A DNA stretch of 40,110 nucleotides from a virus. The DNA is taken from positions 1 through 40,110 of the IMG/VR virus record IMGVR_UViG_3300010885_038891; one strand, given 5' to 3'. Numbering within the stretch: position 1 is the stretch's first letter; every line of letters begins with the position of its first letter. The position numbers and the translations under genes are program-made. Below the pieces are notes generated by a model. The model ran no database searches and had not been told where the DNA came from. It saw nothing but the letters and a program-made list of their open reading frames with translations. Of this stretch, positions 2,994 through 37,275 are shown in pieces.

Positions 2994-3191
2994 ATTAAAT
3001 CTAATCAACCGTTAAAAGATACTCAGGTATGCACACGGATTTCTTCTGAAATTAGAGACAAGTTTTACGAAAAAGCTTTAGTTTTTGGAAACCCTTCAGA
3101 AGTTTTACGTGATATCATTGAAGCTTTTATCGATGATCGCTATACAATTATTCCCGACCCGAAAGGTAAATCTATCTATGCTAGAAGATAA
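2994..3191 (+). CDS. Ribbon-helix-helix-like regulator, apparent ATT start
   Basis: A 65-residue protein resembling Arc/MetJ-type ribbon-helix-helix regulators: a short strand (DTQVCTRIS), a helix (SEIRDKFYEKALVFG), NPSEVLRDIIEAFID, and a basic tail. The start is unusual. The only in-frame ATG (2940) lies inside the -10 promoter box, upstream of the expected transcript start. A good Shine-Dalgarno, AAAGGAG (2981-2987), is spaced 6 bases from an ATT codon, and no ATG, GTG or TTG follows in frame before the conserved domain. ATT starts are rare and known mainly from infC. The protein heads the replication operon and probably autoregulates it through the inverted repeat upstream. The domain call is moderate. 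Confidence 0.65.
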   Translation: MKSNQPLKDTQVCTRISSEIRDKFYEKALVFGNPSEVLRDIIEAFIDDRYTIIPDPKGKSIYARR

Positions 3192-3669
3192 AATTCAAAA
3201 ATTAACTGAGAGTGTCCAATCATTAGAAAAAGTGATATCCGCATTTATGGCAGGTCATTTAAAGGCCACTATTTCAGAAAAAGCAAAAGATCCGTCAAAG
3301 GGTATTCCTATTATTGATACCACTCTTATCAAAAATCCTATTCTTGAAAACAAGGTTGTTGAAAATAAGATCGTTCCTAGTGAACCAAAAGCAGAAACAC
3401 TAACCGCACCTTTTGAAATGCCTTCTTTCATGAAGGAGGAATCACCTGAAGTTCTTGATACACCACCTCATGTTCCGTTGAATGATCTTGGTGATGTACT
3501 CGCATACACTCAATCCGTATACGGTGAACTAGGGCCAGTAGATGGATCCGGAATTCAGAAAATCCTAAAAGACGATTTCGGATGTACTCACATGAGTGAA
3601 CTTCCCAAAGAGAAATTTATTCAATATTATTTTAAAATTGAAAAACTCAAAAAGGACAAAAACAAATGA
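3178..3669 (+). CDS. Coiled-coil protein of the replication operon
   Basis: A 163-residue protein of unknown function. The N-terminus (about 1-30) is a predicted coiled coil (LEDKIQKLTESVQSLEKVI). The middle is a charged, flexible linker, and the last 50 residues form a small helical module (GIQKILKDDFGC, MSELPKEKFIQYYFKIEKL). I chose the ATG that overlaps the end of the RHH gene by 14 bases, preceded by GAAAGG. Longer in-frame starts would run out of frame across the RHH gene. The linker carries MPSFMKEESPEV, a motif shared with a virion-region protein (19634-19918) and, in shorter form, with the end of the DUF2815 protein. It overlaps the nuclease gene at ATGA. A replication accessory role is only inferred. 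Confidence 0.7.
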   Translation: MLEDKIQKLTESVQSLEKVISAFMAGHLKATISEKAKDPSKGIPIIDTTLIKNPILENKVVENKIVPSEPKAETLTAPFEMPSFMKEESPEVLDTPPHVPLNDLGDVLAYTQSVYGELGPVDGSGIQKILKDDFGCTHMSELPKEKFIQYYFKIEKLKKDKNK

Positions 3670-18927: not shown

Positions 18928-19637
18928 TGCAATCCAGTGTAAATGTTATAGCCCCATCGAGTTGAGACTAACGAACGGGGGAAAAATAAAACATCGTCTG
19001 GGTTATTTATTTTTTTAAGGGTGTTTAAACTTTTAGCTGCAATTTTAGAAACTGTTTTACTAGGTTCTACACCAAATTCTGAGGATATCTCACAAGCTAA
19101 GTTAAATCGAGCGGCTCTAAGATAACCAGGAGGGAAAAATAACTGGGTGCCAATTTCAGCAGCCCCTGATAATGGTTTTGTAGACACAAAATGCCATATT
19201 AGAGATTGTGTGGGTTTTGGGAATATATTGATTTCAATATCAGGGTAAGTCATATTTACGAATATAACTTGAGGAAGAGTCGATGTTGCACTTTTAAGAG
19301 TGATCGCATTGTATTGTTCTTGGTTTATAAAGCTGGGAGTGAATGATTGTTTCCCCCCAGCATTTGTATAATAAGTTGAAAAGTCTAGTAAAGTTGGTCT
19401 TTCCCCAACAAAATCGCCCGTTGGTCCTAACGTTTGACGAATTTCACCAACGGGCCATGTGAATACTTGATCTTGGGTGCAAAATACGGATAACCGATCT
19501 GCACTCCAAGATTCAAACATTTGATTTAAAGCAAGTAAACAATCTTGCGAAGTGGCTGCTGAGGGTTCTTCATCTTCCGCAAGTTGTCCAATTAACCGCA
19601 AGCAACCGTTGATTAAATCACCTGCTGTGACTATCAC
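18924..19637 (-). CDS. Tail accessory factor, P22 gp4-like
   Basis: A 237-residue head-to-tail adaptor that binds the portal ring after DNA packaging. The pattern AGDLINGCLRLIGQL, ALNQMFESWSADRL, then FINQEQYNAITLK, then FFPPGYLRAARFNLACEIS matches the gp4 tail accessory family. In P22 this protein also has muramidase activity; no such motif is evident here. Translation begins at a GTG overlapping the upstream stop (GTGA). The order upstream of the gp10-like gene is as in P22. Confidence 0.8.
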   Translation of the reverse strand: MIVTAGDLINGCLRLIGQLAEDEEPSAATSQDCLLALNQMFESWSADRLSVFCTQDQVFTWPVGEIRQTLGPTGDFVGERPTLLDFSTYYTNAGGKQSFTPSFINQEQYNAITLKSATSTLPQVIFVNMTYPDIEINIFPKPTQSLIWHFVSTKPLSGAAEIGTQLFFPPGYLRAARFNLACEISSEFGVEPSKTVSKIAAKSLNTLKKINNPDDVLFFPRSLVSTRWGYNIYTGLQ

Positions 19638-19918
19638 TTACGAATCGCTTTACCAGGTTTAGAGGATTCTTTCATGAAACTGGGAACTTCAGGTTCTTCA
19701 CCTAAATTACCAGGTTTAGAGGATTCTTTCATGAAACTGGGAACTTCAGGTTCTTCACCTAGATCTTCAGTTTTTTCAAGAACAGATGTTTCCACTTTTG
19801 AAGCTTCTCTTTCACATGGGCGATATTCTTCCCACCCATTAGCTTTATCATGAGATACTTCTTTAGAAGATACCGCCACTTTTGCTCCATAGATCGCATG
19901 TCGAAGATATACATTCAT
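19634..19918 (-). CDS. Small protein with duplicated PSFMKESSKPG motif
   Basis: A 94-residue protein of unknown function. The N-terminal 35 residues (VYLRHAIYGAKVAVS) may be a small folded region; the rest is charged and probably disordered. It contains two copies of a 19-residue unit with core EVPSFMKESSKPG, made by a 57-bp tandem duplication. The same PSFMKE motif appears in the coiled-coil protein of the replication operon, with different codons. It overlaps genes on both sides (ATGA upstream, GTGA downstream). It could be a linker or docking protein in the virion or a regulator; I cannot decide. Confidence 0.65.
   Translation of the reverse strand: MNVYLRHAIYGAKVAVSSKEVSHDKANGWEEYRPCEREASKVETSVLEKTEDLGEEPEVPSFMKESSKPGNLGEEPEVPSFMKESSKPGKAIRK
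19651..19764 (-). repeat. 57-bp tandem duplication
   Basis: Two adjacent 57-base units (19651-19707 and 19708-19764) differ at one position near their ends (AAAT versus AGAT). They lie in frame in the small protein with PSFM motifs, adding 19 residues. The near identity implies a recent duplication, and copy number may vary between isolates. Confidence 0.9.
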
Positions 19919-32736: not shown

Positions 32737-32933
32737 AAAAGGAAGTAGAGGAAAAACTTAGGCTATTACAACTTTTCGAAAATTCGATATTCAAGGGATT
32801 GGCTACACCTATGAATGAGTCGCTCATACTCTTTTATTTGCTTACCTACCACACCAAATGTTGTGCGTGTATATGTAAAACCTTGGGTATACCATTTACG
32901 TATCATCTTAATAGTGAGGACAATGAACAATGA
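32718..32933 (+). CDS. Small early protein, unknown
   Basis: A 71-residue protein with an N-terminal charged helix (SEQLKKEVEEKLRLLQLFEN) and a cysteine cluster (HTKCCACICKTLG) that could bind a metal. GGAGG lies 7 bases before the ATG. It overlaps the glycosyltransferase gene at ATGA, which suggests co-translation. Confidence 0.62.
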   Translation: MDSEQLKKEVEEKLRLLQLFENSIFKGLATPMNESLILFYLLTYHTKCCACICKTLGIPFTYHLNSEDNEQ

Positions 32934-34186
32934 AGAAACTATATTTATTTCCCGGATGCTCACCTTACATAGGTGGAGCGGAAACTTTGTTTCATTCTAT
33001 CGCTGAACGACTAAAACACGAATTCGATATTCACGTGCTGCTTCAACCTGGAGCGTGTGAAAACCTATTCGAATTACAACCGGTTACAGGTGTAACACTG
33101 CACAACTTATCAACTGAATATCGTTTCAAATGTTACGATAACGGGGTTCTACTATGTGGTGGCGCATCAATTGGGCAAATCCCTAACCTAATTTACCCCT
33201 CTCAAACTAAATTAGTCGTATGGCCGCTTCATACACTTGAATTGTTTATGTCATTTACCCCATTCGTGCATTACATTTCCACACGATTCGGGTATACGTT
33301 TTTACGAAAATACGTGAATTGGATGGCTGAGGGTTCCACGATAAAAAGTATCCTCAATAATCTGAATGAAAAAAATGGTCTGATCTTCATGGACTATAAT
33401 ACTCTCGCGTGTTCTGAGTACGTTTTGGGGATATCCGGTAAAGTGGTGCCTTTGATGGTTGACTTTAAAGATCAAATTCGCGAGAAAAAAACTAATGAGG
33501 TACCTAGAATCGCGTGGGTGGGTCGTCTAGACTCGTTTAAAATTCACATTTTAGAATATATCATCCGCGACATGTCTAAAAGAAAAAACACGAGTTTTCA
33601 CATAATCGGTAGTGGTAAAGCTGAAAAAAGAATCCGTGCTTTAGCCAACCGGTTGAACTTCAATATCACATTTCACGGATTCGTAGAACCAAGTAAACTA
33701 CCCGACCTTATACAAACAATGGATGTCGTCTTTGCAATGGGAACGAGTGCACTCCAAGCCGGCCATCTAGGCGTAGCCACGGTACTGGTCGACTATTCAG
33801 AAAAGAGGATAAAAGAAGACAGTTATCAGTTTTCATGGTTATGCGATCAAGTGGTTATCGGAGTTGGTCAAGATATTAATATGCCGTATTTTAGAAGATC
33901 TACCTCTTTGAGGGGAAGTGATGATTTTAAAACAATCGGGAGTCAATGTCATGATTATGTGGAGAAATATCATGGGGAATCAGCTAATAAGAAGTTGATT
34001 GAGGCACTTCATACTAGCACGGCTCCTTTATCCCTAGTTCATGAGATTAAGTTTATTAAACCAATTCAGAAAACGTTGTATATAAGACTATCCAAGATTA
34101 GGGATAAGATCCTTAAAATGCGTAGTCAATATTCATACTCGTTTTTTGAAAAAGTAATTGACTATTTTTATCCAGTGGTGATATAG
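32930..34186 (+). CDS. GT-B glycosyltransferase, GT4-like
   Basis: A 418-residue cytoplasmic sugar transferase. The N-lobe begins KKLYLFPGCSPYIGGAETLF, with the glycine loop of GT4 enzymes at 14-18. The C-lobe has PRIAWVGRLDSFK, FHIIGSGKAEKRIRAL and NITFHGFVEPSKLPDLI. The nucleotide-sugar site reads AMGTSALQAGHLGVATVLVD, with Gln where an acid of the EX7E pair is usual, so activity or donor may differ. A basic C-terminal helix (YIRLSKIRDKILKMRSQYS) could bind membrane. In an early operon it could modify host O-antigen to exclude other phages, or modified phage DNA bases; no base-modification gene was seen, so the first is favoured. Confidence 0.8.
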   Translation: MKKLYLFPGCSPYIGGAETLFHSIAERLKHEFDIHVLLQPGACENLFELQPVTGVTLHNLSTEYRFKCYDNGVLLCGGASIGQIPNLIYPSQTKLVVWPLHTLELFMSFTPFVHYISTRFGYTFLRKYVNWMAEGSTIKSILNNLNEKNGLIFMDYNTLACSEYVLGISGKVVPLMVDFKDQIREKKTNEVPRIAWVGRLDSFKIHILEYIIRDMSKRKNTSFHIIGSGKAEKRIRALANRLNFNITFHGFVEPSKLPDLIQTMDVVFAMGTSALQAGHLGVATVLVDYSEKRIKEDSYQFSWLCDQVVIGVGQDINMPYFRRSTSLRGSDDFKTIGSQCHDYVEKYHGESANKKLIEALHTSTAPLSLVHEIKFIKPIQKTLYIRLSKIRDKILKMRSQYSYSFFEKVIDYFYPVVI

Positions 34187-34611: not shown

Positions 34612-35355
34612 ATGAAAACTGTTATTTTTAAAAATTATGAAGAATTTTTAAACCGGAAGGAAAGAGAGGTCAACGGGGTTAGCCCTGAATTCGCACAACA
34701 ATTTCCAGAATTTGAAAAAAATAATGATACAAATAAGGCATGCTGGAATTGCCGTGGTTGCCGTGGTTGCCGTGGTTGCCGTGGTTGCCGTGATTGCTGG
34801 GATTGCTGGGATTTCTGGGATTGCCGTGGTTGCCGTGGTTGCCGTGATTGTAGTGATTGTAGTGATTGTAGTGATTGCAGTGATTGCTGGAATTGCCGTG
34901 GTTGCAGTGGTTGCAGTGATTGCAGTGATTGTAGTGATTGCAGTGATTGCTGGAATTGTAGTGATTGTAGTGATTGTAGTGATTGCCGTGGTTGCTGTGG
35001 TTGCTGGAATTGCCGTGGTATTGACAAAGAGCGATTATATATACCAAAAATAGAAAATATTCATCAAAAAGTGTATGAATCGGCCTCTAAGCCTGGGTCG
35101 CTTAATATGAGCAAGTGGCATACCTGCGATACAACACATTGTCGAGCAGGTTGGGTGACTACCATTGCAGGAGATCAAGGAAAAAAATTAGAGGATTATT
35201 ATGGTCCCATATTGGCGGCGGTAAAAATATATAAAGTCAGCTCATCAATTGAAGTTAAATGGGCGTTGCGTTTTTTCGAAAGCAACAAAACTGCCATGGC
35301 TGATATGAAAAGATGCGCTGAATTAGAAAGGAAACAAAATGAAATCCAAAATTAG
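34612..35355 (+). CDS. Cysteine tripeptide-repeat protein with conserved C-terminal domain
   Basis: A 247-residue protein in three parts. Residues 1-43 are a short N-domain. Residues 44-136 are 31 tandem tripeptides of the form C-[R/S/W/C]-[G/D/N], carrying 31 cysteines with one C replaced by F. The C-terminal 100 residues form a separate domain (IENIHQKVYESASKPGSLNM; SKWHTCDTTHCRAGW; FFESNKTAMADMKRCAEL). I recall similar Cys-rich arrays joined to a WHTCDTTHCRAGW domain in other phages, without known function. The array could be a solenoid, a metal or redox-active scaffold, or a display rod. No signal peptide, so it acts in the cytoplasm. Confidence 0.8.
   Translation: MKTVIFKNYEEFLNRKEREVNGVSPEFAQQFPEFEKNNDTNKACWNCRGCRGCRGCRGCRDCWDCWDFWDCRGCRGCRDCSDCSDCSDCSDCWNCRGCSGCSDCSDCSDCSDCWNCSDCSDCSDCRGCCGCWNCRGIDKERLYIPKIENIHQKVYESASKPGSLNMSKWHTCDTTHCRAGWVTTIAGDQGKKLEDYYGPILAAVKIYKVSSSIEVKWALRFFESNKTAMADMKRCAELERKQNEIQN
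34741..35019 (+). repeat. 9-bp tandem repeat array, 31 units
   Basis: Thirty-one 9-base units of the form TG(C/T)-(CGT/AGT/TGG/TGT)-(GGT/GAT/AAT), one with TTC as first codon. Runs of identical units (four TGCCGTGGT; four CSD units twice) suggest growth by slippage or unequal crossover. The array also leaves other frames open, producing spurious ORFs on both strands. Confidence 0.95.
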
Positions 35356-36407: not shown

Positions 36408-36631
36408 AAATATTTGATCCCAAAATTACGCCTGGGCCGTGGAAAATACAAGATTATATTGCGGCAATATCCGCCATCCCCGCAATGACGCAAGTCATAA
36501 AAGTAGCTAGAAAAGTAGATTGGTTTGTTCAACCAGAAAAGGGAGACATTAAAAGTATAGAAGTTCTTAATGAATTAGGTAATGCTTTGTACGAACTAGA
36601 CCAACTACATGGAAAGGAAGTAGATAAATGA
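36404..36631 (+). CDS. Small early protein with TPGPWK motif
   Basis: A 75-residue protein beginning KIFDPKITPGPWKIQDYIAA. The ITPGPW block is a common opening of small phage accessory proteins of unknown function (ead/Ea22-like). The C-terminus is a charged helix (IEVLNELGNALYELDQLHG). It overlaps neighbours at ATGA on both sides and directly precedes the hexapeptide-array gene. Confidence 0.65.
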   Translation: MKIFDPKITPGPWKIQDYIAAISAIPAMTQVIKVARKVDWFVQPEKGDIKSIEVLNELGNALYELDQLHGKEVDK

Positions 36632-37275
36632 AAGAGAAAATAATCAATGAATCTATTATCGAAGGCGATTTAATTTTTGATGGTAAGTTAATTTTTAAAT
36701 GCGATTGTGAAATTATCGGTAATTTAAAATGTGATGAAATATATTCAGAATATTCATTGAAAGTTATTCTTAACCAGGACGTTCGCGGGTACCAGTACGT
36801 TGGCGGGAACCAGGACGTTGGCGGGAACCAGGACGTTCGCGGGAACCAGGACGTTGGCGGGAACCAGGACGTTCGCGGGAACCAGGACGTTCGCGGGTAC
36901 CAGTACGTTGGCGGGCTCCAGTACGTTGGCGGGAGCCAGTACGTTGGCGGGAACCAGGACGTTGGCGGGAACCAGGACGTTCGCGGGAGCCAGGACGTTT
37001 GCGGGAGCCAGGACGTTCGCGGGAGCCAGGACGTTCGCGGGTACCGTTATTTTTCATTTGGTTCCAAATATAAATTTGGTGTTCTTGGAGATGTAGTAAA
37101 AATAGGATGTAAAGAAAAAACTGTTTCTGAATGGGAAGAATTTTTTACTACTAAACAGAAAATAGAATTAGAACCTGATTCACCCGCCTATAGGCGACTT
37201 CATATGGGATTTAATGCCTGTAAGGCTTTGATGGGATGGCATGATGTTTATAGGAAACCGGAGGTTAAACAATGA
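36628..37275 (+). CDS. Hexapeptide-array (left-handed beta-helix-like) protein
   Basis: A 215-residue protein. Residues 1-48 look like beta-solenoid strands (IIEGDLIFDGKLIFKCDCEI). Residues 49-138 are fifteen hexads, [N/Y/S/L]-Q-[D/Y]-V-[G/R/C]-G. Read as V-[G/R/C]-G-x-Q-x, they fit the hexapeptide rule of left-handed parallel beta-helices, about five turns. The C-terminal 77 residues (FGVLGDVVKIGCKEKTVSEW; FFTTKQKIELEPDSPAYRRL) form a distinct domain that I recall from other phage proteins of unknown function. The acyltransferase active-site histidine of LpxA-type proteins is absent, so this is not an acyltransferase. GGAAG lies 9 bases before the ATG. Confidence 0.75.
   Translation: MKEKIINESIIEGDLIFDGKLIFKCDCEIIGNLKCDEIYSEYSLKVILNQDVRGYQYVGGNQDVGGNQDVRGNQDVGGNQDVRGNQDVRGYQYVGGLQYVGGSQYVGGNQDVGGNQDVRGSQDVCGSQDVRGSQDVRGYRYFSFGSKYKFGVLGDVVKIGCKEKTVSEWEEFFTTKQKIELEPDSPAYRRLHMGFNACKALMGWHDVYRKPEVKQ
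36772..37041 (+). repeat. 18-bp tandem repeat array, 15 units
   Basis: Fifteen units of consensus NNC-CAG-KAC-GTT-NGC-GGG. Codon 1 is AAC, TAC, AGC or CTC; codon 3 GAC or TAC; codon 5 GGC, CGC or TGC. Codons 2, 4 and 6 and every third position are invariant in all units. The array is far more GC-rich than its flanks. Confidence 0.97.

Follow-up and report, generated by a model that had tools for sequence, protein, structure and literature searches.

Phage proteins in which cysteine recurs at every third residue (CXX arrays) constitute a large, widespread and unnamed group, and these array proteins are probably a kind of phage solenoid protein. The member described here has 247 residues and is encoded in a 40110-base virus record (IMG/VR record IMGVR_UViG_3300010885_038891), the whole of which is hereafter called the window. 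Its array is probably a new minimal β-helix with a coil of 12 residues, as judged from modelling; the fuller proposal, in which such a rod would carry or present a C-terminal domain in early infection, is given about an even chance of being correct. If this fold holds, a side of three residues would be about the smallest repeat able to build a β-helix, and phages would have made many such rods of very different lengths. The array would then represent a simple sulfur-cored rod amenable to design, would explain an unnamed PHROGs family, and would allow the reason for which phages retain cysteine at each third residue to be tested directly. Moreover, the array is carried by two phages with named hosts, Vibrio phage 1.238 and FL-1, the latter frame-shifted as deposited.

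The gene and its cysteine array

The window holds terminase, portal, major head and head-closure genes, and the record is therefore that of a tailed phage. The CXX gene occupies 34612-35355 on the plus strand, from an ATG start to the stop codon (included). Its product begins with MKTVIFKNYEEFLNRKEREVNG, an N-terminus that is charged and, read by eye, without a hydrophobic stretch, for which reason the protein is probably cytoplasmic. An N-terminal cap (residues 1-43, 34612-34740, plus strand) of the "cap 1" type, FxxYxEFLxREDKxxNGVSxEFA...N.TNxG, is kept in relatives; it is followed by the array (residues 44-136, 34741-35019, plus strand) and by a C-terminal helical domain (residues 144-247, 35041-35352, plus strand).

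The initial annotation had placed 31 repeat units at 34741-35019, and both the coordinates and the frame are borne out, the 31 triplets lying in frame with the open reading frame. Its count of 31 cysteines in 93 residues likewise holds, made up of 30 that begin a triplet and the second cysteine of a CCG unit; the whole protein has 34. The description of the array as C-[R/S/W]-[G/D/N] repeated 31 times is right in the number of units but too uniform, because cysteine comes first in 30 of the 31, unit 9 being FWD, and one unit is CCG. The triplets comprise 11 CSD, nine CRG, four CWN, two CRD, two CWD and one each of FWD, CSG and CCG, so that only C, F, W, R, S, G, D and N occur and threonine is absent. 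The 31 units are built from only nine different 9-mers, and tandem repeat (TRF) scores of 272 at a period of 63 bp and 227 at a period of 9 bp indicate that the array is not a product of chance. Moreover, the array is very likely translated, judging from its frame and codons, since it is joined in frame to a cap and a C-terminal domain that are both conserved in relatives, and since its cysteine codons swap between TGC and TGT but hardly ever to those of other residues.

A set of 65 arrays, taken from those of the 75 family members that had been reached via the C-terminal domain alone, was compared after ragged array ends had been trimmed. Cysteine stands first in 1818 of the 1828 triplets, and 60 arrays are perfect; the ten other first residues are serine (5), leucine (3) and alanine (2), a count that leaves aside non-cysteine residues at the very start of two arrays (L177 and L188). 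The register is unbroken in 65/65 arrays, and breaks occur outside this set in L025, L112 and L226. The last of these, from a Spirosoma metagenome-assembled genome, is among the longest arrays seen, with 61 overlapping CxxCxxC matches and a two-residue register break. Across the 65 arrays, cysteine is encoded by TGC 1532 times and by TGT 286 times, with both codons present in 28; the first two bases of the codon hardly vary (0.02 and 0.05 bits), in contrast to the remaining positions of the 9-mer (0.65 to 1.77 bits), which indicates that cysteine is held by selection at the protein level.

Growth by local duplication, proposed at the outset from homogeneous runs of units, is supported by this comparison. 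AGY and TCN serine codons are mixed in none of the 65 arrays, so each array would have expanded from its own founder unit, and two close relatives (L216 and L218), whose C-terminal parts are 95% and whose caps are 97% identical, differ in having 28 and 22 triplets. As far as the sequences indicate, array length changes through 9-bp duplication. The comparison of array length that the initial annotation had proposed gave 11-49 triplets in the 65 arrays, with no clear preference for length modulo 3, 4, 5 or 6 among them, while L225 and L222 have about 4 to 6; near relatives differ by 6 and by 10 triplets, gaps that have no multiple of 4 or 5 in common.

The C-terminal domain, its distribution and the exchange of repeats

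The C-terminal domain was predicted by AlphaFold, using 38 sequences, to be helical over residues 150-246 (block pLDDT 71-96). Within it lies the motif WHTCDTTHCRAGW (35116-35154, plus strand), of which W, H, C, T, H, C, R, G and W are invariant in 24/24 aligned relatives; it may be guessed that the invariant histidines and cysteines form a zinc site. Alignment of the domain with 204 PDB chains by VIA-align reached a Z of 3.8 at most, and a profile search of PDB sequences gave an E of 0.25 at best. A search of BFVD yielded one notable match, a 74-residue viral entry (E 2.4e-3, TM 0.83 by target), which its length and identity suggest to be a fragment of FL-1.

No Pfam or NCBIfam match to the 247-residue protein was found above cut-off. 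Two PHROGs families of unknown function match it, each covering a part only: phrog_31265 matches the C-terminal domain (E 1.6e-28, through model positions 149-248 of 264 only), and phrog_15341 matches residues 43-138 over the array (E 2.7e-15), a weak, low-complexity match. PADLOC gave no match for the protein at E 0.1, and among 38 family members two PADLOC families produced one marginal match each (best E 0.02 and 0.058). No characterised homologue was found in the searches made, and no earlier description in searches of open-licence papers.

A tblastn search of 50,697 phage records matched Vibrio phage 1.238, in three records, and FL-1. Flavobacterium phage FL-1 and Vibrio phage 1.238.A (AUR97317.1) have the same cap and a CXX array; the Vibrio phage protein, however, ends in a short tail and is without the C-terminal domain. 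The latter (L019:3001-3375) bears the database label "insect antifreeze protein" (IPR016133), which is probably over-called because the protein has no Pfam match; an insect antifreeze Pfam match was likewise absent among the 38 family members and the further relatives tested. The deposited FL-1 sequence (L002, about 3001-3319) has a frameshift within the motif of the C-terminal domain, which is annotated there as a separate small protein. A scan of viral contigs returned 16 relatives with the domain as query and 429 with a domain alignment, of which the best 80 were analysed, thereby biasing class shares towards the query protein's own type. In GTDB genomes, 36 loci were found, including Bacteroidota, Alphaproteobacteria and Xanthomonas, and one of 72,556 plasmid records matched, labelled as a pentapeptide protein. 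The nearest rows to the 247-residue protein on a domain tree include Dyadobacter and Spirosoma loci, which makes a Bacteroidota host likely.

Among 90 distinct proteins with the THCR[AG]GW motif, 76 carry CXX arrays, two carry arrays cut by a contig end, 11 carry pentapeptide repeats and one has a short ADLRG stretch, shares that rest on the best 80 of the 429 relatives and are biased in the same manner. True pentapeptide repeats precede the C-terminal (WHTC) domain in L015, L017 and L231, which match PF00805, and in L239 the domain stands behind a repeat labelled as LRR-like by reading, for which there was no Pfam match. When CXX arrays were sought by a DNA pattern, at least 119 array ORFs were obtained, many of them spurious (antisense or Pro-rich stretches). 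Among the matches listed, at least two kinds of N-terminal cap occur, and the C-termini, with classes assigned by regular expression, comprise WHTC, CGCF-type, MSEY..FC type, LTKEEY-type and short DRKLEPDL-like tails. Several CXX-array paralogues lie close together on each of four viral contigs among the matches listed (L025, L073, L083 and L093), and each of these is short-tailed, ending like DRKLEPDL.

On a tree of 122 domains, built from few columns and consisting mostly of open forks, the pentapeptide group forms one side of one branch (support 96). A single change between CXX and pentapeptide repeats suffices, so the repeat would have been exchanged once or rarely, and frequent module exchange is rejected. 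The N-terminal caps show about six changes on the domain tree, of which the starred branches force only one. The initial view of the array as a tunable scaffold on a fixed effector is thus sustained in part. Carriers of one C-terminal domain do range from 11 to 49 triplets, and exchange is rare on the tree; the effector is not strictly fixed, however, because the domain also stands behind pentapeptide and LRR-like repeats and CXX arrays occur with other C-termini.

Predicted fold of the array

In the proposed fold, one CXX triplet would form one side of a β-helix, with the cysteine in β conformation and its side chain inward, the second residue, mostly serine, in β conformation and outward, and the third (Asp, Gly, Asn, Arg, Ser or Tyr) at an αL corner. 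Four triplets, or 12 residues, would most likely close one coil, and 31 triplets would make up about eight coils, giving a thin rod whose interior is lined by stacked thiols. The N-terminal cap would close the start of the rod, which would bear the compact helical domain with its invariant His-Cys-His-Cys motif; rod length would be set by gain or loss of 9-bp units, with no need for a fixed phase.

Structure prediction, which the initial annotation had recommended, succeeded for the cap, the C-terminal domain and residues 42-60 but not for the remainder of the array. Two AlphaFold models were made, from 38 sequences and from 33 shortened, nearly gap-free sequences, and they are not independent because they share sequences. 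The cap reached a pLDDT of about 77-91 in the 38-sequence model and 82-93 in the 33-sequence model, and residues 42-60 (34735-34791, plus strand), the sole array part resolved, gave ten-residue block means of 77 and 59 in the former and 82 and 67 in the latter. In both models, single-residue bridges (pairing taken from the DSSP string) connect residues 42, 45 and 48 with 54, 57 and 60, that is, i to i+12 and in every case at the second triplet position. Beyond residue 60 the pLDDT is below 50 in both, and hence we infer the fold of the array there.

A scan of ideal backbones over 11 torsion classes found β-β-αL to be best for closing triplets, with position 1 inward and positions 2 and 3 outward. 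In this ideal geometry, a coil of four triplets forms 11/12 inter-coil hydrogen bonds when left-handed and 8/12 when right-handed, and a coil of five forms 15/15 when right-handed and 14/15, with more clash, when left-handed. A coil of three triplets is tight, and in a coil of six the sulfurs lie 5 to 6 Å off axis, leaving the core empty. Residue preferences were counted in 109 arrays picked by regular expressions that favour cysteine: in the 32 without the WHTC domain, V/I/T occupy 128/783 second and 12/783 third positions, and G/N/D occupy 82/783 and 446/783, respectively; in the 77 with the domain, V/I/T occupy 56/2246 and 6/2246. The third-position preferences fit the β-β-αL model and thereby support it, and the register kept throughout the 65 domain-linked arrays likewise speaks for the proposed rod. 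Lag tests between triplets of the same arrays (identity, charge, Gly, aromatic/hydrophobic and non-Ser) gave no consistent period, with a largest z of 2.7, and the sequences thus do not reveal how large a coil is.

The pentapeptide repeat is a known β-helix, and its presence in the array's place in one clade, ahead of the same C-terminal domain, supports reading the array as a β-helix as well. The commonest surface dipeptides of the pentapeptide units are SG, RG, RD and SD, and SD and SG lead in the CXX units. Pentapeptide proteins (PF00805) nonetheless differ from CXX proteins in their period of five and their A/L core, and none of the 38 CXX family members, the 247-residue protein included, matched the pentapeptide model.

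Against solved structures, the best match of the family profile was the beetle antifreeze protein TmAFP (1EZG), over the array (E 7.7e-4), with a score of 21.7 bits and a composition bias of 38.7 bits, above the score. The Vibrio phage protein alone gave an E of 0.23 against 1EZG, and Foldseek returned no match with the cap-plus-array model. Like the predicted array, TmAFP is a tight, regular β-helix with core cysteines and an inward residue at every third position, these being residues 2, 5, 8 and 11 of each 12-residue coil, as described in PMC8038014. The initial statement that a period of three does not match pentapeptide or hexapeptide repeats stands for the pentapeptide model, but a period of three is shared by the inward residues of the beetle protein. 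Unlike the array, with cysteine every three residues, TmAFP has the consensus TCTxSxNCxxAx, with cysteine every six; it is also secreted, disulfide-bonded and provided with ice-binding threonine, whereas the CXX protein has no seen signal sequence and its array no threonine.

Possible function and competing explanations

Genes near 121 loci, with family names taken from sequence reading, include exonuclease-like neighbours in 10, DNA methyltransferase-like in 10 and RecT-like in 8, which suggests a setting of early, variable genes, although the exonuclease-like and methyltransferase-like neighbours are found at a minority of the loci. Read from sequence, the CXX protein is probably an early-region rod bearing a helical His/Cys domain; as a rod or adapter, it would offer that domain, or its own surface, to some host target early in infection. 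The near-absolute cysteine is not fully accounted for by a core with a structural role alone, and a metal-loaded core is the main alternative. In a metal-thiolate array, the cysteines would bind metal ions or clusters, whether to store, sequester or sense them, much as metallothioneins do though not necessarily by common descent, and the repeat would grow since more thiols bind more metal. Such an array would account for a first-position cysteine that is stricter than the core of 24 pentapeptide relatives (A in 342/373 and L in 357/373, against 1818/1828) and for freely varying length. In an ideal four-triplet coil, the distance between the sulfurs and the axis is 2.1-3.2 Å according to handedness and rotamer, a range within which the usual metal-thiolate bond lengths fall. 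However, a loose thiolate cluster would not require so strict a period of three, with αL-type residues in third place; in one clade the same C-terminal domain is preceded by pentapeptide repeats rather than by a CXX array, and none of the ten substitutions is His or Asp. Metal binding is accordingly regarded as rather unlikely. The special case in which a single metal ion or small cluster sits in every coil, giving a cytoplasmic metal-thiolate wire, a stack of thiol quartets tuned nine bases at a time, is improbable.

It is likewise doubtful, to the point of improbability, that the array is a tolerated product of slippage without a structural role, with only the cap and the C-terminal domain mattering. 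Local duplication does build the arrays, near relatives do differ in length, and no periodic surface or conserved outward residue pattern was found at any array index past the first triplet; drift of this kind, however, is at odds with the near-fixed cysteine codon bases, the register held in every array of the set and the occurrence of some arrays without the C-terminal domain. A DNA mimic or gyrase-type inhibitor is brought to mind by the relatives with true pentapeptide repeats, as MfpA and Qnr act through DNA mimicry (PMC8145042). This is very unlikely, the mixed charge of the arrays (mean -0.14 per triplet, 16/76 net positive) being not consistently acidic and speaking against it. Least credible is the precursor of a ribosomally made modified peptide of the thiazole/oxazole type. 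According to PMC2674419, heterocycloanthracin-type bacteriocins do contain Cys-Xaa-Xaa repeats of variable number, and a Bradyrhizobium precursor contains Cys-Arg-Gly repeats; yet such precursors are generally small, beginning with a leader and carrying the repeat towards the C-terminus (PMC2674419), whereas the CXX array is followed by a conserved domain about 104 residues long. Moreover, heterocycloanthracin-type precursors are accompanied by modification genes, and neither YcaO nor radical SAM enzymes were found in the 40110-base record, with positive controls, although the record may be incomplete and the host might supply such an enzyme. Mixed charge, the missing surface pattern and the lack of these enzymes together favour a rod that carries or spaces the helical domain.

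Other features of the window may be recorded. A second repeat protein is encoded 1.3 kb downstream of the CXX gene (36628-37275, plus strand), with an 18-bp unit in about 15 copies that specifies the hexapeptide NQDV[RG]G, followed by a C-terminal part with IGCKEKTVSEW; it belongs to PHROGs of unknown function, and its C-terminal part had no relative in one scan of viral contigs. Kinship of one alternative CXX C-terminal family with this protein was considered and rejected, the hhalign probability being just 0.6%. Directly upstream of the CXX gene lies an ORF of 418 residues (32930-34186, plus strand), which we take to resemble a glycosyltransferase because of PYIGGAE near its start, as in family 4. 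Lastly, a perfect 57-bp direct duplication in two copies is located at 19650-19761, within the minus-strand ORF 19634-19918.
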